A DNA stretch of 54,842 bases from Magnetococcales bacterium. Its GTDB lineage: Bacteria > Pseudomonadota > Magnetococcia > Magnetococcales > UBA8363. The notes under the pieces are model-generated. The model was not told the origin of the DNA. It ran no database searches and saw only the letters and a list, made by a program, of their open reading frames with translations. Position numbers and translations under genes: made by a program. Shown in pieces: positions 28,141 through 40,566 of the stretch (position 1 is its first letter; every line of letters begins with the position of its first letter). The stretch is from the NCBI GenBank assembly GCA_015232645.1, contig JADFZF010000003.1, positions 1 through 54,842 of the forward strand, in the 5' to 3' direction.

Positions 28141-30903
28141 TCAGCGCACGCCTGCCAACCGCAATACCTGATCCGCCTCCCGAGTCATACCCCGAATCAG
28201 GAGCAGTTCCACATAGTCCGCCTTGAGTTTGGCGTCCCCCGGTTGTTCGCGCATCAAGGCTCCATAACCTTTTAATGCCTCCGACCACCGACCGATACGT
28301 TCCCAGATTCGCGTCTGGGTGACCCGTATTGAAAATGGAGGATGTTGCAGCGATGCTATCTTGTCCAAGGCCTTGAGATAAAAAGGTTTAGCCTTTTCGA
28401 CCATTCCGAGGGATCGATAGACCTCGGCCAGATAAAAATAGGGCTCATGATTATCATCATGGTGTCCCAGGTAGCGACCAAGGAAGGCGACGACTTGCTC
28501 CCATTCCCCGGAATAAAAAGCCATGTATCCCAGTCGTTTCAGAGCCTTCTCGTCATCCGGGTCCAGTTTGATGATGTTTTGATAGATATTTTTTGCCACT
28601 TTATGCAAGTTGTTTTCCTCGGCGATGGTGGCCAGGGAGTGGAGTCTTGAGGTTGATGAGGGAACGGCAGCCTCGGCAACGATAAGCTCTTCGACCCTTG
28701 AGGTGGTTTTGGTCGAGGTCAGCGCCCGCAACAAGGCTTCGGTCAAAGCAGGGTGTTGTCCAGGGCCCCTGTTTCGGAGTTCGGCCAAGGCCACCGCCTG
28801 TGGCGCCGCCCCGACCCCGGACAGTATCGTCACCCAAGCCGGAAGGGAGGAGTCATCCGCCCTGCGGGCACGTTGCAGCAGCCAATCCATGGCAAACGGA
28901 TCGGGCCGCGGCCCCAGGATATACAATAATTGCGCCATCTCCGGGCTATCGACAGCGACCGTCTCGGCGGCATCCAGAAAGGCCCGGAGGCCCATATTTC
29001 TTTCCCCGACCTCCAGGGCGAGCCTACCGTATTCCCGACGCAAATCCGGGGGCAGTTGCTGTGCCGGGGGGCCGAGATGTTCTTTAAGGATGGCCAATAC
29101 TTCCTGCCGCACCGGTTGTTTATCCCGCCAAGTGGCCATGACCAACTCTTCGTAAAAATTTTTTCCATTGGCATCCAGATACCGGCGGACAGGCTGCAGC
29201 CGACGCAGCGCGGTCATTGTTTGTCCTTCGGCGCGGTTGAGCCTGGCCCACAGGATGGTTCGTTCCAAGGCTTCTCTGGTGGGCGGGGATGGGGTGGAGG
29301 TGGTTGAGAAGTCCGGAGGGAGGGGATCCAAGCGGGTCAGAACCTCCCGAGCCAAAACAAGTTGTCCCGAGTCCAACGCCCGATGAACCAAGTCATCGAG
29401 AAAAGCGTGTGCCAATTGCGATCGGGCTTGGATCCAGGCGATGCAGTCCTGCTGTCGCCCCGCCACCCCGGCCAGAAGAAGAATCCGAGCCGCGGCCAAG
29501 GCGTCGGTCTTGATTGTCTGACCGACCTGGTCAAAAAAAACAAGACCACCCTGGGTATCGTCGATCTGGATAAAATATCGGGCCAGTTCCCGAAATACCT
29601 CTGGTGGCGGGTGTTGCGGCTCCCGGGCCATGGCCATCAGGATTTCTCCCCCTTCACGCCAGCGGCCAAGCTTGAGGAAAAGCGATGCAAGACGCAAACG
29701 CCATTCCGGTTCCAACTCCCCCTTCCGGCCCAGCTCAAGCCAAGAGTTCAGTTCATCCGCCCTGACACCGGCATGAAGGAGCAATTCAGCCGCAAGCACC
29801 GGATGACCAAGCAAAAATGGCCGATCAAGAGATTCCAATACCAGGCGGGAACTGAAGGGACCAGCACTCAGCACTGCCTGTTCGCCGACGAGGCGTTGCA
29901 ACCAAACAGGTCGCTCTCCTTCAGGAAGGATGGTCATGACGCGGATGGCTTGGCCAAATCGATTCGATTTGACAGACAGTTCCGCCAAAAGGGCCACCCC
30001 GGTCGCCGACAGACGTTTTTGCCGAAGGCGGTCCGATAACAATGGCAACGCCAGTTTTTGTCTTCCGGAGATGGCGGCGATCCGACCCCATTGAATCAAG
30101 ACCCGATCGGAGGTGGGGAGTCGCCGCCGCAACTCTTCCACCCATGACCATGCCAGCTCGGCAGACTCTCCCTGCTGAAGCAATTCGCCGATCATTTCTG
30201 CCGTGGACTCATCAACCTGGCCATTGAGCCAGGAACGGGCCTCATCCAGAGCCTCTTCTTTGTGCCCAAGTTTGAGCAGAGAGTAGACCAGCATCTTCAG
30301 ACTTTTCCCATCCAATTCCCGGCGATGTCGGGATTTCATGTCCCTCAAGGTATCGACCACCTTTTGGAATTCCCCTTCGGCCATGAAAACTTTGGCAAGA
30401 TCCCGATACCCCCCCACATGATGAGGATGGCGTTGGATAATCTCCTTAAGGATTGGTATCTGTTTTTCGGAATTGCCGGAAAAATCATGTAAATTGCTCA
30501 GTTGTTGCAGCACCTCCAGGGATGGCTGCAAACGATGGATCTCCTCCAGGTTGGCCAGGTAATCGCTTTCCCTTTGGGCGTATTGATAGAGTTTTCCCAA
30601 TTCCTTGCGGCCATCCAGGTCACGGGGGTATCGGACCAGATGCTTTTCCAAAACCAGGATGGCTTGATCGACCTTGCCATTCAACTGGTACAGATTGGCC
30701 AGGATCAGGACGGACGGTGGGGACAGATCCGTATGTTCTTCCAACTGTCCTTCCATTAATTCCAATGCCCGGCCATAATCATGATCGCGCAGGTAGATCA
30801 ACGCCAAAGTATCCATTGACGGCAGAAGCAGATAACCCAAGGCTATGCCGGCCAGGCTCAGAATCAGGCCTATGAGGTAGTAACGCGCCATCACCCAATC
30901 CAC
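28141..30903 (-). CDS. Membrane-anchored TPR scaffold protein, PelB/PelE-like
   Basis: This is a 920-residue protein. One N-terminal membrane segment (about residues 8-28) is followed by almost continuous helical TPR-like repeats, clearest at 60-230 and 760-915 (for example LDPDDEKALKRLGYMAFYSGEW). No beta-barrel or catalytic domain is visible. Only 17 bases separate its start from the divergent hydrolase gene. Pseudomonas PelB has an N-terminal anchor and about 850 residues of TPR before an outer-membrane barrel, and PelE is a smaller TPR membrane protein. Beside PelA-like genes this protein could be a barrel-less equivalent. That is inference; TPR repeats alone are not diagnostic. An in-frame ATG at 30891 is another possible start. 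Confidence 0.75.
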   Translation of the reverse strand: MDWVMARYYLIGLILSLAGIALGYLLLPSMDTLALIYLRDHDYGRALELMEGQLEEHTDLSPPSVLILANLYQLNGKVDQAILVLEKHLVRYPRDLDGRKELGKLYQYAQRESDYLANLEEIHRLQPSLEVLQQLSNLHDFSGNSEKQIPILKEIIQRHPHHVGGYRDLAKVFMAEGEFQKVVDTLRDMKSRHRRELDGKSLKMLVYSLLKLGHKEEALDEARSWLNGQVDESTAEMIGELLQQGESAELAWSWVEELRRRLPTSDRVLIQWGRIAAISGRQKLALPLLSDRLRQKRLSATGVALLAELSVKSNRFGQAIRVMTILPEGERPVWLQRLVGEQAVLSAGPFSSRLVLESLDRPFLLGHPVLAAELLLHAGVRADELNSWLELGRKGELEPEWRLRLASLFLKLGRWREGGEILMAMAREPQHPPPEVFRELARYFIQIDDTQGGLVFFDQVGQTIKTDALAAARILLLAGVAGRQQDCIAWIQARSQLAHAFLDDLVHRALDSGQLVLAREVLTRLDPLPPDFSTTSTPSPPTREALERTILWARLNRAEGQTMTALRRLQPVRRYLDANGKNFYEELVMATWRDKQPVRQEVLAILKEHLGPPAQQLPPDLRREYGRLALEVGERNMGLRAFLDAAETVAVDSPEMAQLLYILGPRPDPFAMDWLLQRARRADDSSLPAWVTILSGVGAAPQAVALAELRNRGPGQHPALTEALLRALTSTKTTSRVEELIVAEAAVPSSTSRLHSLATIAEENNLHKVAKNIYQNIIKLDPDDEKALKRLGYMAFYSGEWEQVVAFLGRYLGHHDDNHEPYFYLAEVYRSLGMVEKAKPFYLKALDKIASLQHPPFSIRVTQTRIWERIGRWSEALKGYGALMREQPGDAKLKADYVELLLIRGMTREADQVLRLAGVR

Positions 30904-30920
30904 TCGGTCAAACCAAAACC

Positions 30921-31772
30921 ATGCCCCGCCACCTCTTGTTCAATCTTGTCCCGTCCATCATGTCGCTCATGCTCGCTTTTTCATGGCCAAGCCACGCCCA
31001 AGCCAATTCCTGGGTGGCCTATTACTCAGACTCTGAACCTGAAACCCGTTTCGAATCCTTTCGTCTGATCGTTTTCGACACCATGTTCCATCCGCCGCTG
31101 CAACGATTGAAAGAACGGGGAAAGACGATTTTAGGTTATTTAAGCCTGGGAGAAGTGGAAAATCATCGCCGTCATTTTGCCTGGGCCAAGGAAAAAAACC
31201 TGTTGTTGATGGAAAACAAAAACTGGCCGGGCAGCTATTTTGTTGATGTCAGAAATCCGCAATGGACCGAAATGATTCTGGAAGCCGTCATGCCGGAAAT
31301 TTTGCAACAAGGCTTTCGAGGCATTTTCGTTGATACCATGGACAATCCCGGGTACCTGGAGGATCTGGATCCAGAACGATTTCGCGGCATGCGCCAGGGA
31401 GGAATCGATCTGATCAAGGCATTGCATCGGCATTATCCCCACATTCCCATCATGATCAATCGAGGTTTCGACCTTTTGGACCATCTGCTTTTCGATATCG
31501 ATATGATTTTGGTCGAATCCATCCGCAGCCATTACGATACCACCACCCAAAAATACGTATCGACCCCCGATGCCGACTATGAGGCGCATCTGAGAAAATT
31601 ACGACGTTTCAAGGAGATCCGCTCTCGGATCGAGCTGTATTCTCTCGACTATTGGGATCCAGCCGATCCGGTGGGCATCGCCTCCATCTATCGCCAGCAA
31701 CGCAGCCACGGGTTGATACCCTACGTCGCGACCAGGGAGTTGAACCGACTTGTACCCGAGCCGCGTCCATGA
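30921..31772 (+). CDS. Secreted endo-alpha-1,4-polygalactosaminidase-like hydrolase (GH114/TM1410 type)
   Basis: This is a 283-residue exported protein with a signal peptide (about residues 1-28, ending SHAQA). The barrel fold of the GH114-like family is recognised by WVAYYSDS, GYLSLGEVE, GIFVDTMDN with its conserved Asp, MINRGFDLL, ILVESI and YSLDYWDP. Known relatives cut galactosamine-rich polysaccharide; the N-terminal domain of PelA belongs here. The stop codon overlaps the next start as ATGA, so the deacetylase is coupled to it. The two together equal the domain order of full-length PelA. No ribosome site is obvious before ATG 30921. Confidence 0.8.
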   Translation: MPRHLLFNLVPSIMSLMLAFSWPSHAQANSWVAYYSDSEPETRFESFRLIVFDTMFHPPLQRLKERGKTILGYLSLGEVENHRRHFAWAKEKNLLLMENKNWPGSYFVDVRNPQWTEMILEAVMPEILQQGFRGIFVDTMDNPGYLEDLDPERFRGMRQGGIDLIKALHRHYPHIPIMINRGFDLLDHLLFDIDMILVESIRSHYDTTTQKYVSTPDADYEAHLRKLRRFKEIRSRIELYSLDYWDPADPVGIASIYRQQRSHGLIPYVATRELNRLVPEPRP

Positions 31773-34141
31773 GACTGTTTCGGTTGATTCTATGCGCTAC
31801 TTATGCAACTTTTTTGCTATCGGCGGCAAAAGCGAATGCCGAAGCCCCCCCCGTTTCGATTCCTCGTACCATACTGGCGTTTTATGATTCCAAACTCAAT
31901 AACGGCGAGGCCTGGTTCGGCCGCACCCATAAGTTTGCGGAAATGCCACTCAATTACCTTGGTTTGCGCCTGCGCTACATCGATACTCGGCAACCGCTCC
32001 CCGAATTGTCGAGCCTGTCCGATATCCGGGGGGCGATCATTTGGAGCAGAACCAATCAGATCGAAGATCCAGAAGCTTTTCTTGAATGGGCTACCCGATT
32101 CGTGAAGTCCGGAAAACGCCTGGCCTTGATCGGTGCCCCACCCTGGTCAACCAACCTCAGGGGGATTCCGCCGTCGGGCATCCTGACCGCGACTTTCTGG
32201 CAGACCTTTGGTTTTTCCTATCGTGATCAATGGGTCTCCTTTACCCATGACATGGAAATCATTCGTCAGGATCCCGAGGTGATCGGATTCGAGCACCAAC
32301 TACCCAAACCATTGCCGAGTTATCAGGAAATCCTGCCCGACAGCCCTGATGCTCAATTACACCTTCTGGTTCGTCGGGGTGGGACGGAAAAACAAGAGCA
32401 TGTCCTGGTGGCCACCACACCTCGGGGTGGTTTTATCGCCGCAGACTATGCGATCTATATGGACCAGGATCCCTTCGAGGATCATCAGTTTGTTCAGTGG
32501 ATCATCAATCCTTTCGAGTTTTTCCGACTTGCCTTTGCCACCGACGATCTGCCCAAGGCGGATGTCAGTACCTTGTCCAATCGTCGACTCTACTACAGCC
32601 ATATCGACGGCGATGGATTGCGTAATCTGACCGAAGTCAAACCCTACAACGATAAACGAATGACTGTCGCCGAGGTCATTCTTGAAGAAATTATCAAGAA
32701 GTATCCTGATCTTCCGGTTACTTTTGCACCGGTTGTCGGCGACATCGATCCCAACTGGTACGGTTCCGACCGTCATCTCTCCATCGCCAGAGCGCTCTTG
32801 GCCCCCCCCCACGTCGAGGCAGGCAATCATACCTTGAGCCATCCTCTGGACTGGGGTTTTTTCGAAAACTTCGACCCCGTTCGCGAAATTCCTTATCTAA
32901 AAAACTATCCGGAACGGGAGGATTCTCTATTGGCGAACAATATTTTAAGTTTTTTTGGTTTCAAAAAACACCGCCCATCCCATCATTTTGATGCCGCCAT
33001 GGGGAAGGAAGGGGAAGAAGAGGATGGCCAGGAAAACAGAGACTCGACACTGAAGAAAGAACGTTACAGCGATTACAAGACTCCCCGATCCTACGCCAGC
33101 AAACCATTTAATCTGCATGAGGAAATCGAAGGATCGAACGCGACCATCAAGAAGCTGCTACCGACGAACAAGGAGATCAAACTACTGCAATGGTCGGGAA
33201 ATACCTTGCCGTTCAAAGAGGCCCTACAGATGACCCGCGGGGCGGGAATGAGAAATATCAACGGCGGTAATACTCGTTTTGATGGCAAATTTCCATCGGT
33301 GGCCTGGATTGCCCCGCTAGGCCGGAGTGTGGCGGGGGAGTGGCAGTGTTATGCCTCCTCAAGCAATGAAAACACCTATACTAATTTATGGACCGAGCAA
33401 TTTTCCGGTTTTCAATATTTGATCCATACCATCAAAAACACGGAAACTCCCAGAAGATTGATTCCATTCAATATTTATTATCACCTGTATTCCGGAGAAA
33501 AGCTGGCCAGCCTGAATGCCTTGAAAAACAATCTGAATTATGCCCGTTCGCAATCCCTGGCGCCGGTAGAAGCGAGTTATTATTCGGCGATTGCCGATGG
33601 GGCCATCCAGGCCAATTTTGTCCGATTGCCCTCCGGGGCGGTAGAGGTTCATGATCGGGGCCAGCTGCAAACCATTCGTTTTGATCGCTCCACCTTGAAG
33701 CAAATCGATCTGACCCGTTCCAGGGGGGTGACGGGTCAACGCCATTTTCAAGGCAGCCTGTACGTCGCCCTGGATCAGGAGGTCGCCGTCCCCGAGATCA
33801 TGATTGTCCCCTATCTGACCCCTGCCAAACCGCCGCCATCGCCGCTGCCTTATCTATTGGAAGGTCGTTGGCGCATTTTTGGCCTGAAACCACTGGCATC
33901 CCAAGGGTTTGAATTTTATGCCCATGGCTATGGTTGGGGCGATATGACCTGGTATGTTCCCCAATGGGGAAGTTACTCCGTGACCGTCTATGACCTTCAG
34001 GAAAAACCTCTGTTGCAACAGCGAGCGGTGAGTACGGATGATGATGGTTTGATCCGGTTGAATCTTTCGGTTTCGGCCATGGACAAGGTACGGATCGTTG
34101 TTTCATGGCAAAATGGGGTGGACGGCTATGATCGTCGGTAG
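31769..34141 (+). CDS. PelA-like polysaccharide deacetylase
   Basis: This is a 790-residue exported protein with a signal peptide (LILCATYATFLLSAAKANA). Residues 30-265 resemble the flavodoxin/reductase-like spacer of PelA. The deacetylase domain begins with YYSHIDGDG (Asp280 and Asp282), and the metal-binding pair His354/His358 stands in GNHTLSHP. These match the catalytic Asp and HxxxH motif of PelA (CE18). A charged insertion (about 410-440, rich in Glu/Lys) follows, and the C-terminal 130 residues form a beta-rich, carbohydrate-binding-like domain. It should deacetylate an N-acetylhexosamine polymer in the periplasm. The start at 31769 overlaps the hydrolase stop (ATGA). A C9 run at 32812-32820 is read through intact. 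Confidence 0.85.
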   Translation: MRLFRLILCATYATFLLSAAKANAEAPPVSIPRTILAFYDSKLNNGEAWFGRTHKFAEMPLNYLGLRLRYIDTRQPLPELSSLSDIRGAIIWSRTNQIEDPEAFLEWATRFVKSGKRLALIGAPPWSTNLRGIPPSGILTATFWQTFGFSYRDQWVSFTHDMEIIRQDPEVIGFEHQLPKPLPSYQEILPDSPDAQLHLLVRRGGTEKQEHVLVATTPRGGFIAADYAIYMDQDPFEDHQFVQWIINPFEFFRLAFATDDLPKADVSTLSNRRLYYSHIDGDGLRNLTEVKPYNDKRMTVAEVILEEIIKKYPDLPVTFAPVVGDIDPNWYGSDRHLSIARALLAPPHVEAGNHTLSHPLDWGFFENFDPVREIPYLKNYPEREDSLLANNILSFFGFKKHRPSHHFDAAMGKEGEEEDGQENRDSTLKKERYSDYKTPRSYASKPFNLHEEIEGSNATIKKLLPTNKEIKLLQWSGNTLPFKEALQMTRGAGMRNINGGNTRFDGKFPSVAWIAPLGRSVAGEWQCYASSSNENTYTNLWTEQFSGFQYLIHTIKNTETPRRLIPFNIYYHLYSGEKLASLNALKNNLNYARSQSLAPVEASYYSAIADGAIQANFVRLPSGAVEVHDRGQLQTIRFDRSTLKQIDLTRSRGVTGQRHFQGSLYVALDQEVAVPEIMIVPYLTPAKPPPSPLPYLLEGRWRIFGLKPLASQGFEFYAHGYGWGDMTWYVPQWGSYSVTVYDLQEKPLLQQRAVSTDDDGLIRLNLSVSAMDKVRIVVSWQNGVDGYDRR

Positions 34142-34300: not shown

Positions 34301-34852
34301 ATGGGGAAGGGGTTATTCAAAATCGGTATGACGGGACTGCTTTTGACCGGGATCCCCGGCCAATGGCTATTTGCGACGCCCATCCCGGCATCCCCGTTCG
34401 TGGTGGTTCCCCCTGGAGGCCCGGACAAGTGTCTCTCGTGCCATGGATGGCGACAACCGGATCCGACCCCACGAACATTGAAAAAACCCCACGATACCAT
34501 CGTGTTGACCCATTGGCCGCAACCGGGCCCATGGTGCGGCCAATGCCATGACCTGAAGCAACCACGGCGATTGTTTTTATACAACGACCAGTCGGTGGAC
34601 TTTAGGGAAGGGTATCGGCTGTGTGGTCAGTGTCATGGGGCCAAGGTCACGGACTGGATGTTCGGGGCCCATGGCAAACGGGTGACCGATTGGCGGGGAC
34701 CGCGCAAAATTCAGGCCTGTCGCGTCTGCCACGATCCCCATCAACCCCAAACCAAACCTGTGGTTCCATCGGCCCCCCCAGCCCCTCCCGGGACCAGTCG
34801 GGAATGGAATCCGGTGGTGCCGCCAACTCATACGCTGGCCACCTCCCCATGA
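34301..34852 (+). CDS. Periplasmic tetrahaem cytochrome c
   Basis: This is a 183-residue protein with a signal peptide (about residues 1-25) and four CXXCH haem-c sites: C44-H48, C79-H83, C108-H112 and C140-H144. Additional histidines could serve as distal ligands. The tail is Pro/Thr-rich. GGAGAGG precedes ATG 34301, and the stop overlaps the ferredoxin start as ATGA. The pair resembles the cytochrome-plus-iron-sulfur halves of DsrJ/DsrO, Nrf or Qrc-type quinone-linked complexes. It would pass electrons between a periplasmic partner and the iron-sulfur protein. Exact complex unknown. Confidence 0.85.
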   Translation: MGKGLFKIGMTGLLLTGIPGQWLFATPIPASPFVVVPPGGPDKCLSCHGWRQPDPTPRTLKKPHDTIVLTHWPQPGPWCGQCHDLKQPRRLFLYNDQSVDFREGYRLCGQCHGAKVTDWMFGAHGKRVTDWRGPRKIQACRVCHDPHQPQTKPVVPSAPPAPPGTSREWNPVVPPTHTLATSP

Positions 34853-35775
34853 GTCCCGACCCTCTTTCCCCTCACGGCCACCGACGCCGTACCTTGCTCC
34901 GAGGGTTGGCAGCGGTCGCTGGTGCCGCTTCCGCTACTGCCGCCGCGGTGGAAACCGAGGGACCTTCCTCCTGGGCGGATGCCTTGGATCGCCTGTTACA
35001 ACAACATTTCGTCAGGATGTCCGCCTCCGAGGTTCAACAGGCCTTACGTCGAATCGAACGCGAAGCCCTGCGGCAACACCGAATCCACCTACAATGTGAT
35101 GCCACACAACCGCTGGATCAAGTCCGTTTTGCCCAAGCCTTGAATCTGGCGGTGTGCAAAGGGAGCCGTCGTTGTGTCGAAGCATGCGTGCGGGAAAATA
35201 ATTGTGGGCGTGGTGGTGCCCTGGAAAATATTCGCGTCCTATCCTTGATGGGAATGACAACGGAGTTGGAACAGGCCAATCCTTACTTCAATCCCCCCCT
35301 GGTCCCGGAACCGGGGCAACGATATCTGCCGATAAGTTGCCAACAGTGTGACCACCCGCCCTGTGTTCAGGCCTGTCCGGTTACCGCCACCTGGAAGGAA
35401 CCCGATGGCATCGTCGTCATCGACTACGACTGGTGCATCGGGTGTCGATACTGTAGCGTGGCCTGCCCCTATGGTGCTCGACATTTCAACTGGAGCCAGC
35501 CGCACATTCCCGCTGACGATTACCAACCCATCACCGATTACCTGGGCAATCGCCCCCGGATCGGAGGCGTGATGGAAAAATGTACCTTTTGCCTGCAACG
35601 AACCCGGAAAGGGTTGCTTCCCGCCTGCCTGGAGGCCTGCCCGACCGGGGCGCGCATCTTTGGCAATCTGCTGGACCCCAGTTCCGAAATTCGTTACGTT
35701 CTGGAACATAAATCGGTCTTCCGGCTTAAAGAAGAGTTGGGAACTTCTCCAGGTTTCTGGTATTTTACTGGGTAG
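34849..35775 (+). CDS. Tat-exported four-cluster ferredoxin subunit (DsrO/NrfC/PsrB-like)
   Basis: This is a 308-residue iron-sulfur protein. The N-terminus HRRRTLLRGLAAVAGAA looks like a Tat signal. Four cysteine groups follow: CKGSRRCVEACVRENNC, CQQCDHPPCVQACP, CIGCRYCSVACP and CTFCLQR...CLEACP, each able to bind a [4Fe-4S] cluster. In known complexes such a subunit docks on an NrfD/PsrC-type quinol membrane protein, but no membrane subunit or molybdopterin catalytic subunit is adjacent. ATG 34849 overlaps the tetrahaem cytochrome stop. The frame is open upstream, but only this start yields a Tat signal. It may serve a partner encoded elsewhere. Confidence 0.85.
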   Translation: MSPDPLSPHGHRRRTLLRGLAAVAGAASATAAAVETEGPSSWADALDRLLQQHFVRMSASEVQQALRRIEREALRQHRIHLQCDATQPLDQVRFAQALNLAVCKGSRRCVEACVRENNCGRGGALENIRVLSLMGMTTELEQANPYFNPPLVPEPGQRYLPISCQQCDHPPCVQACPVTATWKEPDGIVVIDYDWCIGCRYCSVACPYGARHFNWSQPHIPADDYQPITDYLGNRPRIGGVMEKCTFCLQRTRKGLLPACLEACPTGARIFGNLLDPSSEIRYVLEHKSVFRLKEELGTSPGFWYFTG

Positions 35776-36069: not shown

Positions 36070-39003
36070 TTGAAACCCGTGTCATTGGCAACACAATTTT
36101 CCCGGTGGATGATCGGTTTTGCTGTGGTATGTTTTGTCGCCATTGCCCTGATCATGGACCATTTTCAGGACCAGGACCGTCAGACCCTGCTCCAGGAACA
36201 GGCGCAGCAGATTCTCGACCTGGTATTCCGCTACCGTTCGGCGCAGGAGATCGATGGCTACAACCCTGATGGGACCAGTCCATGGTGTCGGGTCCATCGA
36301 TATTCCAATATCACTTCCAAAGCCCATTTTCTCATTAAGAATGTCAGCACCCATCCTCTTAATCCACTCAACTATCCCTCAACCGCGGAACAAAAAATTG
36401 TTACCGATCTTGACAACGGAGAAACACCGCGATCCTCGGGGACGGCCATCCATCTCGAAGGTGGTCCATGGTACGTCCAGGCCCGGCCAATACGATATTC
36501 TCCAACGTGCCTGAGCTGTCACAACAACTCCGGAACCGTGACAAGAAAGGTGGGAAAAAACACGGGATCGGGACACGGGGCCCCGATCACCACCGCAACC
36601 CTGGTTTATATCGATCCGCTCTATTTTTCCAATTCCACCTATCTGTTTTCCAAACCGGCCCTGATGATCACGGCTGCTTTCCTGACGTTGGCTTGCACCT
36701 TCCTTTGGATCGTCCTGGTCAAAAGGACGCTCCACCCACTGGCACTGGTCGGCCAGGCCATGGAACGCTTTGTCTCGGCCCCCGAGGAACAAAATTTGCT
36801 CCCCTTGCCGCTTCCCGTCGAGGTGGACCGGTTGAATCGATCCTTTTTACAACTGGGACAGGATCTGTTGCGCTCACAGTCTTCACTGAACGCCGGTCTG
36901 AAGGAATTGGAAGAGGAAGAGAATCGCTTCCGTTCGCTGACGCACGCGGCCGTCGATGCCATCATTTCCGTTGACGAAAATGGCAACGTCAGTTCATGGA
37001 ACCGGGGAGCGGAACGAATATTCGGCTACTCTGAACAGGAAATGATGGGCAAATCCATCACCCGGTTGATTCCGGAAAAACAGATTCACAACCATCTGAG
37101 TGCCTTTGCCGCCGCTGTGGCCACCGGAAATACCCGCCATCGCGGAGAAACCATGGAAGTAAGCGGCTTGCACAAAGATGGTCGTCTCGTGGCGATCGAA
37201 ATTGTGCTTTCAACCTGGTCCCTGTCGGGACGGAGACATTTTTCCGCAATCATTCGCGATATCGGCAAAAGAAAAAGGAATGCTGAAAAAAATCATCGCG
37301 ATTTCATGTCGCGCATGGCCATCAACAGCATTCTGGAAGTGGCCTTGAAACCTCTTCCCCTTCACGAACAACTGACCCGTTCATTGCAAATCATTCTGGC
37401 GGTTCCCTGGCTGGCCTTGCAATACAAGGGGGCCATTTTCCTGGTCAATCCAAAAACCGGTAAACTGGATTTGACGGTGGAGCAGGGGCTTGGGGAAGAT
37501 ATCAAACTCCGATGCCGGGAAATACCAATGGGCTCTTGCCTGTGCGGGCAAGCGGCAGAAACCAAACAGATCGTTTTTTCTGGAACATTGGATAACCGTC
37601 ACTCGATTCGTCTTCCCGACATGTCGCCTCATGGACACTACTGCGTCCCAGTTTTGATGGATGACCGTTTACTGGGGGTGGTCAATCTGTACCTTCTGGA
37701 GGGACATGTTCGGGAAGTTGAAGAAATACGCTTTTTGGAGACCGTCGCGCAAACCCTGGCCGGGATGATCGATCACAAATTGAATGAACGCAAACTGCTC
37801 TATCTCTATCAAGCCATGGAGCAAAGTCCCGTCAGCGTGCTGATTACCGACCTGAATGGGACCATGGAATATGTCAATCCAACATGCTGCCGGGTGACCG
37901 GTTATGAAGCTGACGAGCTGCTTGGGAAAAATCCCAACATCATCCAGTCGGGACAAATGCCCGACGCCATCTACCGATCCTTATGGAGTACCATTCTGGC
38001 CGGCAATGTCTGGCATGGCGAGTTGCACAATCGCCGTAAAAATGGCGAACTGTTTTGGGAAGACGTTTCCATCAGTCCCATCCGGGACGATAATGGCCAG
38101 ACTCAATATTTTCTGGCGGTAAAGGAAGATGTGACGCAACGCAAACAGCTGGAAAATGCATTGGCCGACCTGTTGAGTTCCCTTGATGTGCGCGTCATGG
38201 AAAGGACTCAAGAGTTGAATGCGAAGGTGGCGGAACTGGAACAGACACGCAGTGAGTTGGTCAAGAGTGAGAAAATGGCCTCCCTGGGACGACTTGTGGC
38301 CGGGTTCGCTCACGAAATCAATACTCCCATCGGCGTGGCGGTGACCGGCTTTTCCTTGATCGGGGAAACACTGAATATCATGGAAGACCTGCTCGCCCAC
38401 GAAGAAGTCCAGGAAGAGGAATTTCGACAAGTCATCGCCACCATCCGTGAAGCGGCCGATCTCTCCCTGGCCAACATTACCCGCGCTGGAGAATTGGTCG
38501 CCAGTTTCAAACGGACCTCCGTGGATCAAAGTTCTGATATCAGAAGATTATTCAACGTTCGCGAAGTGGTCATGGACGTCATCCGTTCGTTGCACAGTAA
38601 ACTTAAAAAAACAGAAATTACCCTGGATGTGATTATCGATCCGGCGTTGAATATGACCGGATGGCCCGGTCTGTTGGAACAAATCTTGACTAATTTTATC
38701 ATCAACAGCCTGCTGCATGGTTATCCATCCGAACAGCCCGTGGGCCGGATCACCATTATGGCATGCATCGAAAAGGGCGAAATGTTGTTGGACTATGCCG
38801 ATGACGGCGTCGGGATGGAAGAATCGGTACGCGGTTTTGCCTTCGAACCATTTTTTACCACCAAAAGAAGTCAAGGAGGTAGTGGATTGGGTCTCTATTT
38901 GTGTTACAATATAGTTACTTCCAAACTGAACGGCACCATCACCTGCAGCAGCTCGCCTGGGCAAGGGGTCCAATTCCACATTGTTTTTCCAGTTTCAGAG
39001 TAA
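36070..39003 (+). CDS. Sensor histidine kinase with haem-c DUF3365 (Tll0287-like) input domain
   Basis: This is a 977-residue membrane kinase. The first membrane segment is about 13-30. A periplasmic DUF3365-type domain carries WCRVHRYSN and one CXXCH (C147-C150-H151), predicted to bind haem c. The second segment is about 196-218. PAS (about 290-415), GAF (about 440-600) and a second PAS (about 605-700) follow. A coiled segment leads to the HisKA-like His748 (AGFAHEINTP), then an ATPase domain with DDGVGM and GSGLGL. TTG 36070 has GGGAG seven bases upstream. Its stop is three bases before the HD-GYP regulator start, so they form a two-component pair. It probably senses redox state, oxygen or NO in the periplasm. 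Confidence 0.88.
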   Translation: MKPVSLATQFSRWMIGFAVVCFVAIALIMDHFQDQDRQTLLQEQAQQILDLVFRYRSAQEIDGYNPDGTSPWCRVHRYSNITSKAHFLIKNVSTHPLNPLNYPSTAEQKIVTDLDNGETPRSSGTAIHLEGGPWYVQARPIRYSPTCLSCHNNSGTVTRKVGKNTGSGHGAPITTATLVYIDPLYFSNSTYLFSKPALMITAAFLTLACTFLWIVLVKRTLHPLALVGQAMERFVSAPEEQNLLPLPLPVEVDRLNRSFLQLGQDLLRSQSSLNAGLKELEEEENRFRSLTHAAVDAIISVDENGNVSSWNRGAERIFGYSEQEMMGKSITRLIPEKQIHNHLSAFAAAVATGNTRHRGETMEVSGLHKDGRLVAIEIVLSTWSLSGRRHFSAIIRDIGKRKRNAEKNHRDFMSRMAINSILEVALKPLPLHEQLTRSLQIILAVPWLALQYKGAIFLVNPKTGKLDLTVEQGLGEDIKLRCREIPMGSCLCGQAAETKQIVFSGTLDNRHSIRLPDMSPHGHYCVPVLMDDRLLGVVNLYLLEGHVREVEEIRFLETVAQTLAGMIDHKLNERKLLYLYQAMEQSPVSVLITDLNGTMEYVNPTCCRVTGYEADELLGKNPNIIQSGQMPDAIYRSLWSTILAGNVWHGELHNRRKNGELFWEDVSISPIRDDNGQTQYFLAVKEDVTQRKQLENALADLLSSLDVRVMERTQELNAKVAELEQTRSELVKSEKMASLGRLVAGFAHEINTPIGVAVTGFSLIGETLNIMEDLLAHEEVQEEEFRQVIATIREAADLSLANITRAGELVASFKRTSVDQSSDIRRLFNVREVVMDVIRSLHSKLKKTEITLDVIIDPALNMTGWPGLLEQILTNFIINSLLHGYPSEQPVGRITIMACIEKGEMLLDYADDGVGMEESVRGFAFEPFFTTKRSQGGSGLGLYLCYNIVTSKLNGTITCSSSPGQGVQFHIVFPVSE

Positions 39004-39006
39004 ACA

Positions 39007-40566
39007 ATGAAGATTATCCGCAAACCGCAGCATGCCGCCGAGCATTCTGTTGCCGGGAACTGGCCTCCGGATGAGGCTGCGGCCCCCTGGCCCATCCTGG
39101 TGGTGGACGATGACCCCGATGTGTTGGCCATTACCAGAATCAGCCTCAAGGATTTCCGATTTTCCGGGAGGGGTGTCCAATTGCACTTTGCCCGCAGCTC
39201 CGAAGAGGCTTTGAAGATCTATCACAGCGTTCCGGAAATGGCACTGGCCCTGATCGATGTGGTCATGGAAACCGAAGATGCAGGTCTCCGATTGGTAGAG
39301 GTCATCCGTAAAGAAATCAAGGATCATACCATCCGGCTGATCATCCGCACCGGACAGCCCGGACACGCCCCGGAGCGTGTCATCATCGATAATTATGATA
39401 TTGATGATTATAAAGATAAGACGGAACTGACATCGAACAAATTATATACTACGGTCCGTTCCGGTCTAAAATCATATCGCGATTTAAAATTGTTGGAACA
39501 CAATCGCCAAGGTTTGGAAATGGTCCTCAGGGCCGCCCCGGAAATGTATCTCCATTCGCTGGATCAGCCGGATCAGTTCTTCCTGGAGGCCTTGGTGCAG
39601 ATCATCCGAATGTGTGAAACCGCATGCTTTCTCAGCACTTCTGGGGGGGAAAAACACGAGCGGATTGGCGGGTTCATCGCGATTTACAATCGCGATGCCC
39701 TGGAAGTGCGTGCGCGATGGAAGTGGCACCCCGTAGAAGAAAAGGCCGAGCTAATATGGTTGACTCAAGAGCTGAACAAGATGGGAATCCAGACTGGCTC
39801 GGGGATGTCCGTTCTGTCCGATGGCCGGGGGATCCTGCCGTTGACGGTGCATGGCTCCCTCATGGGAGTGGTCTATCTGGAGAATGTCGCCCATCTGGCG
39901 CAAAGCGAGAAACATCTCCTGGAGTTGTATGCCGTACAGTGTGCCGGCGCCATGGAAAACCTCCGTTTGCATAATGCCTTGGCCGAAGCCAACCACAATG
40001 CCATGCGCATGCTGGCGGTGGCTGCCGAGTTCAAGGATACCGAAACCGGCGATCACGTCAAACGCCTGGCACGCCAAACCGTGGAGACCGCTCTTGAGTT
40101 GGGTTTTTCCCAGGACGAAGCTCAGGAAATGGGACGTGCAAGCGTCATGCACGATATTGGAAAAATCGGTGTCCCCGATGCCATCCTGCTGAAACCGAAT
40201 CAATTAACCCGGGACGAATTCGAAGTGATCAAATCCCACCCCGGGATTGGCGCTTCCATTTTGGCCGAAGGCGCCAATTTTAAAATGGCACTGGATGTGG
40301 CCTTGTCCCACCACGAGCGTTGGGATGGTACCGGCTACCCCATGGGGCTCAAGGGAGAGGCTATCCCTTTGCCGGCACGCATTGTTGCGGTGGTGGATGT
40401 CTTCGACGCCTTGATCAGCGTCCGACCGTATAAAAAGGCTTGGTCTGTCCTGGAAGCACTGGGGGAAATCGAAAAATTAGCCGGGACGCACTTCGATCCC
40501 AGGGTCGTGGAGGCCTTTCTTCGAACCCATCGCAATCGCAGAGAAAAACGGGGGCAGACGGGATAA
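39007..40566 (+). CDS. Response regulator with DUF3369 and HD-GYP cyclic di-GMP phosphodiesterase
   Basis: This is a 519-residue response regulator. The receiver has ILVVDDDPD and phospho-acceptor Asp84. The segment YDIDDYKDKTELT marks the DUF3369 linker, a GAF-like domain that usually separates receiver and HD-GYP. The phosphodiesterase domain has H382-D383 (MHDIGKIG), HHERWDGTGYP with G443-Y444-P445, and IVAVVDVFDAL. All metal residues expected for hydrolysis of cyclic di-GMP are present. It is the cognate partner of the haem-containing kinase three bases upstream. Its product would lower cyclic di-GMP, a signal that activates Pel-type exopolysaccharide systems. Confidence 0.92.
   Translation: MKIIRKPQHAAEHSVAGNWPPDEAAAPWPILVVDDDPDVLAITRISLKDFRFSGRGVQLHFARSSEEALKIYHSVPEMALALIDVVMETEDAGLRLVEVIRKEIKDHTIRLIIRTGQPGHAPERVIIDNYDIDDYKDKTELTSNKLYTTVRSGLKSYRDLKLLEHNRQGLEMVLRAAPEMYLHSLDQPDQFFLEALVQIIRMCETACFLSTSGGEKHERIGGFIAIYNRDALEVRARWKWHPVEEKAELIWLTQELNKMGIQTGSGMSVLSDGRGILPLTVHGSLMGVVYLENVAHLAQSEKHLLELYAVQCAGAMENLRLHNALAEANHNAMRMLAVAAEFKDTETGDHVKRLARQTVETALELGFSQDEAQEMGRASVMHDIGKIGVPDAILLKPNQLTRDEFEVIKSHPGIGASILAEGANFKMALDVALSHHERWDGTGYPMGLKGEAIPLPARIVAVVDVFDALISVRPYKKAWSVLEALGEIEKLAGTHFDPRVVEAFLRTHRNRREKRGQTG

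Follow-up and report, generated by a model that had tools for sequence, protein, structure and literature searches.

Separate genes for a PelA-type hydrolase, a PelA-type deacetylase and a TPR scaffold: a probable part of a scattered Pel exopolysaccharide system in Magnetococcales

The DNA analyzed here (the window, 54,842 nucleotides) is an entire contig, C333, of the source bin of a Magnetococcales bacterium (G000; 3.39 Mb in 426 contigs, 74% complete). It carries the following features:

28141-30903, minus strand: TPR scaffold, 920 aa, putative equivalent of the TPR part of PelB by synteny and architecture
30892-30920: divergent intergenic region, 29 bp separating the two probable start codons
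30921-31772, plus strand: PelA-H, predicted separate secreted PelA-type endo-alpha-1,4-galactosaminidase domain, 283 aa, D138 and E199 present
31769-34141, plus strand: PelA-DA, predicted separate secreted PelA-type CE21 deacetylase, 790 aa, its ATG overlapping the hydrolase stop
36070-39003, plus strand: sensor histidine kinase
39007-40566, plus strand: DUF3369/HD-GYP response regulator

The overlap between the hydrolase and deacetylase genes reads ATGA at 31769-31772. Homologues of the TPR protein begin at a nearly invariant position, which falls at Met5 of the window ORF; the true start is probably the ATG at 30891-30889 and not the GTG at 30903, which would shorten the 920 residues of the preliminary description to about 916. 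The hydrolase-deacetylase-TPR trio is syntenic in sister genomes and we therefore consider its grouping to be beyond chance. The divergent intergenic region (30892-30920) measures 29 bp as against about 165-250 bp in the sister genomes, and no sigma-70-like promoter was found within it. Its shortness may be genuine, through a deletion, or may come from collapse of the assembly, and loss of a promoter is possible.

Downstream of the deacetylase (34301-35775) the window encodes a multihaem c-type cytochrome and a DsrO-like iron-sulfur protein, which have no obvious connection to Pel. The same pair adjoins the deacetylase in G001, G004 and G005, and G003 shows the cytochrome only, its contig ending there. 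The histidine kinase and HD-GYP regulator pair near the module is syntenic in two further loci (L042 and L043), and a different pair of this kind precedes the barrel-pelC-pelD-pelE-pelF cluster in L167. Control by c-di-GMP from the nearby pair is possible, the association being one of position only.

Pel has been studied mostly in Pseudomonas, in which PelA and PelB are one protein each. The window hydrolase matches the Pfam GH114 family [E=1.7e-19] and finds its best solved match in PelA of P. aeruginosa [E=2.7e-22, 5tcb]. No family in Pfam or NCBIfam matched the deacetylase; against full-length PelA [E=5.8e-57, 9cgy] the match covered its spacer-like and deacetylase regions. PelA being the best match for both, the earlier recognition of a PelA-like hydrolase and deacetylase on two overlapping genes is borne out, while the labels GH114 and CE18 given to PelA have been superseded by GH166 and CE21 in the current classification (PMC12054363, PMC12022489). 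Both catalytic residues of the hydrolase, D138 and E199, are present, as are all those of the deacetylase (H278/D280/D282, H354/H358, E534 and H572), so that the DGD and HxxxH motifs seen initially are indeed kept. The deacetylase residues are invariant in 13 homologues and correspond, in the same order, to H526, D528, D530, H600, H604, E723 and H761 of P. aeruginosa PelA, the assignment being that of PMC12022489. Judged by sequence, the first protein is a putative GH166 hydrolase with its catalytic Asp and Glu, and the second a putative CE21 deacetylase with its His, Asp, metal-triad and acid residues. The single-polypeptide form of Pseudomonas is replaced by two overlapping ORFs. Such a fusion is no requirement for membership among Pel systems, since that of Bacillus cereus lacks it (PMC7112168).

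Two loci elsewhere depart from this conservation. In the second pel cluster of G029 the hydrolase (L055:10923-11801) has lost both catalytic residues and the adjoining deacetylase keeps its own, and the deacetylase of G006 (L048:9093-11562) is interrupted around residue 125 by a stop codon or shift of frame, which is either a real break or a sequence error.

The TPR protein was modelled as entirely helical, with 54 helices, an N-terminal helix at residues 2-26, about 26 helical hairpins and no strands. Because the predicted structure has no strand, we regard the protein as being without a barrel, as had been proposed. Searches with its sequence, Pfam and NCBIfam included, returned no significant match to the PelB TPRs beyond generic TPRs; a profile of its family matched a full-length PelB weakly, and a fold search with the model recovered generic superhelices with no specific match to PelB. 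Relatives possess a separate barrel gene, the product of which, modelled from 29 homologues, is predicted to form a barrel of 16 strands plus a short helical domain. In the PDB it most closely matches the PelBC exporter of P. aeruginosa [E=2e-15, target TM 0.70, 9h80]. Since this adjoining barrel in the relatives models as the PelB channel, the window TPR protein is read as the other half of PelB. The equivalence is supported by position and architecture and not by sequence, which upholds the earlier comparison with the TPR half of PelB on the former two counts. A barrel profile found no match in the source bin, itself 74% complete. In the literature the contact between PelA and PelB has been mapped to the PelB TPRs and the PelA deacetylase (PMC12022489).

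Family models for pelC, pelD, pelE, pelF and pelG recognized none of these genes among the window ORFs, in agreement with the absence of adjacent pelC, pelD, pelF and pelG remarked on at the outset. PelF, PelG and PelD were all found when the source bin was searched with profiles. PelF [NF038011, E=3.5e-132, 441 bits, cut-off 100] lies on contig C382 next to PelG [PF16933, E=8.2e-123], and upstream of it is a PelE homolog of 536 aa that is 28-38% identical to the PelE of the order's other families. PelD is encoded on contig C196 [E=1e-175, order-specific PelD profile]; it is 68-71% identical to PelD of the sister genomes, carries RNTD at the RxxD position and is the putative c-di-GMP receptor of the system. 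The Pfam PelD_GGDEF model was negative against the source bin, which was misleading as a sign of absence, given the match of the order-specific profile; loss of PelD from the genus, suspected from the PelE fusion described below, is ruled out by the same match on C196. The pel genes of the source bin thus occupy at least three contigs (the module on C333, pelE-pelF-pelG on C382, pelD on C196) and, of the two arrangements suggested in the preliminary description, the second, in which the genome holds its Pel system in dispersed pieces, is the one supported. The bin yielded no complete pel operon of the standard kind.

A second hydrolase-deacetylase pair occurs on a 3208-base contig of the source bin (C200, L012). 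It is 95% identical to the pairs of G001 and G005 and 67% identical to the window copy. We rejected it as an in-genome paralogue, as it groups with G001 and G005 at full support and the other source proteins compared are about 55-71% identical to theirs. This 3.2-kb contig is most likely mis-binned, though a recent transfer may have occurred.

Among 100 genomes of relatives examined, 17 contain the deacetylase. In other families of Magnetococcales a single cluster is found in the order hydrolase-deacetylase-TPR-barrel-pelC-pelD-pelE-pelF-pelG, the pelC product being a PelC-like lipoprotein; in some of these genomes pelG falls beyond the stretch examined. As the hydrolase, deacetylase, TPR and barrel genes are separate in this cluster, both PelA and PelB are divided in the order, and the comparison of synteny called for by the first description places the trio beside pelD-G. 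Within the source genus there is no linkage between the hydrolase-deacetylase pair and the barrel-pelC-pelD-pelE-pelF-pelG set, and the pair is divergent from the TPR gene in six of eight genomes. G002, G005, G006 and G007 display the same unlinked module together with the remaining pel genes, and G001 has the module plus pelE-pelF. The barrel-to-pelG set is on a single contig in G002 and G006; in G007 pelG is on one contig and the remainder (barrel-pelC-D-E-F) on another, and in G005 the set is spread over three contigs, or four if all pel genes are counted. In G022, a member of another family, the pair is inverted relative to the TPR gene and still adjoins it and the remaining pel genes, and this looks like an intermediate arrangement. 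A likely path would be inversion, then separation, then further scattering. G007 also bears a second, nearly complete pel cluster (L056, contig C205), the deacetylase of which groups with those of other families in the tree; this cluster was probably acquired from them.

PelE of the genus has an additional feature. In all six of the genomes in which it was found, including the source copy (C382:17961-19571, L013), its C-terminus is a fused cyclic-nucleotide-binding domain [Pfam E=5.7e-22 and 5.3e-17 in the two proteins scanned]. All six fused proteins conserve a glycine-glutamate with an arginine nine residues on, the usual phosphate-binding signature of such domains, and we infer that the domain may bind a nucleotide. 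PelE of the order's other families stops short of it, it was absent from eight long PelE proteins from elsewhere, and a literature search on PelE with cyclic-nucleotide-binding domains found nothing relevant. Such a domain on PelE hints at an additional regulatory signal acting on Pel synthesis.

Based upon homology, catalytic residues, synteny, the pelD, pelE, pelF and pelG genes of the source genome and the fold modelled for a relative's barrel protein, the three window genes very probably provide the periplasmic steps of a Pel exopolysaccharide system, those in which the polymer is modified and guided; the genes for its inner-membrane synthase are found on other contigs. The source genome holds a genuine member of the Pel systems, albeit a scattered one with split genes. 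In the mechanism we propose, polymer synthesis by PelF, PelG, PelE and PelD would be controlled by c-di-GMP and possibly also by a cyclic mononucleotide acting through the PelE-fused domain. The TPR protein, anchored in the inner membrane, would reach across the periplasm in the role of the PelB TPRs. Along this scaffold would pass what is presumably a GalNAc polymer, losing some of its acetyl groups to secreted PelA-DA and being trimmed by secreted PelA-H; the product expected of a Pel system is a partly deacetylated alpha-1,4-GalNAc/GalN polymer. Its way out would be a PelB-type barrel that has its own gene and is surrounded by PelC. The parts would presumably assemble in trans, and the source organism presumably possesses the barrel and pelC. 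Counting against this reading are the purely generic sequence matches of the TPR protein, the want of a barrel match in the source bin, the 29-bp intergenic region, expression of the window copy being only presumed, and two sister genomes which suggest that the module may not always serve Pel synthesis.

These sisters, G003 (78% complete) and G004 (99%), carry the hydrolase-deacetylase-TPR module (L046 and L047), and no match above background to PelD, PelE, PelF, PelG or the barrel was obtained in either draft bin. Between them dN/dS is 0.18 for the deacetylase, 0.12 for the hydrolase and 0.11 for the TPR gene, which indicates that the module genes are under purifying selection; the values are similar to those of the pair G001 and G005, whose bins do carry pelE and pelF. 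Either both draft bins miss one genomic island or the module has been retained in some other role, and the synthase-less module in two sisters is both the most interesting and the least secure point of this analysis. We offer only tentatively, and think it rather doubtful, the combined proposal that in these two the module is a freestanding periplasmic polysaccharide processor kept by selection and that elsewhere in the genus two second messengers gate Pel synthesis, c-di-GMP through PelD and a cyclic mononucleotide through the PelE-fused domain. Further freestanding modules are possible in the Minwuia records and the complete Kordiimonadales chromosome IMCC3096 (L220, L233, L237 and L242), where a TPR protein of about 1614 aa comes after the deacetylase and neither a hydrolase nor pelD-G was seen within 10 kb.

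Were the trio to process or guide another alpha-galactosamine-containing polymer, as a Pel-derived module separated from the Pel synthase, the purifying selection and retained catalytic residues in these sisters would be explained, as would the lack of physical linkage between module and synthase genes throughout the genus. This is unlikely all the same: synthase genes are present in the source genome and most sisters, module and synthase are clustered together in the order's other families, and the absence in G003 and G004 rests on draft bins and could be explained by a single unbinned island. The initial suggestion of a distinct Pel-derived module finds no support in the source genome, where pelD, pelE, pelF and pelG were found, and may hold for these two sisters.

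It is more improbable still that we are observing a decaying remnant, that is, a pel system falling apart in this genus whose scattered genes are unexpressed or non-functional. The short divergent region devoid of a promoter-like site, the broken frame in G006 and the loss of synthase genes from two sisters would fit such decay, but the window ORFs are intact and full-length with all catalytic residues, and selection is strongly purifying in both sister pairs examined (G003/G004 and G001/G005). That a secreted deacetylase-hydrolase pair unrelated to Pel sits by chance beside a generic TPR protein is hardly credible, since despite the purely generic TPR matches and the want of adjacent pel genes in the window both enzymes are directly homologous to PelA, and the trio's position next to pelD-G in relatives largely refutes it.

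If the Pel reading is correct, hydrolase, deacetylase, scaffold and pore are four proteins encoded apart from the synthase, and each step could in principle be deleted separately. Such a layout allows one to ask whether the activities of PelA must be joined to one another and the scaffold to the pore, and it bears on why a modification module can outlive its synthase.

The division of PelA and PelB is not itself new, because a split PelA occurs in B. cereus, separate genes are prevalent in GTDB genomes and pelB fission has been reported. Scanning GTDB genome contigs gave 154 related loci, and 80 of them were retained for analysis; the scan favors sequences resembling the query, so the counts which follow are not frequencies for Pel at large. 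In 47 of the 80 a separate hydrolase gene is directly upstream of the deacetylase, and in 11 it has another place in the locus; one locus has the two fused, and in 21, four of these at contig edges, no hydrolase was seen. These hydrolase counts derive from a clean GH profile, an earlier one having been contaminated by fused PelA. TPR and barrel are separate in 35 of the 80, and in another category of 15 a TPR protein of over 1150 aa, probably a fused PelB, occurs with no separate barrel. In B. cereus the pelA(H) and pelA(DA) genes work although they are separate (PMC7112168), and a Gram-negative survey reports pelB fission in thermophiles, and relocation or rearrangement of pelA (PMC7112194). 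The divided PelA is therefore not the exception that it had first been taken for. Scattering, and relatives which seemingly keep only the periplasmic half, are what is unusual; specific to the genus are the unlinking of the module from the synthase and exporter genes, the PelE fusion and the synthase-less module of two sisters. A literature search on PelA in Magnetococcales returned nothing relevant.

With pelABCDEFG of P. aeruginosa the Magnetococcales system shares both PelA active sites, a TPR scaffold with an N-terminal membrane helix, PelD, PelE, PelF and PelG in the source genome, and a barrel and PelC in relatives; it differs in that PelA and PelB are two proteins each and the genes occupy several contigs. 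The pelDEA(DA)FG operon of B. cereus likewise has hydrolase and deacetylase on separate genes, but this organism is Gram-positive with no outer membrane, and its pelA(H) is upstream of the operon and does not overlap pelA(DA) (PMC7112168). The fission of pelB and relocation of pelA are common to the Gram-negative survey, whose examples come from thermophiles, Nitrosospira and Leptospirillum; the portion available describes no Magnetococcales, PelE nucleotide-binding fusion or synthase-less module (PMC7112194). Azospirillum, other Alphaproteobacteria, Gammaproteobacteria, Acidobacteria and Nitrospinota, unlike the source genome, keep the module in one cluster with pelD-G, and in them too overlapping or adjacent hydrolase and deacetylase genes are followed by the TPR gene, often with a separate barrel.
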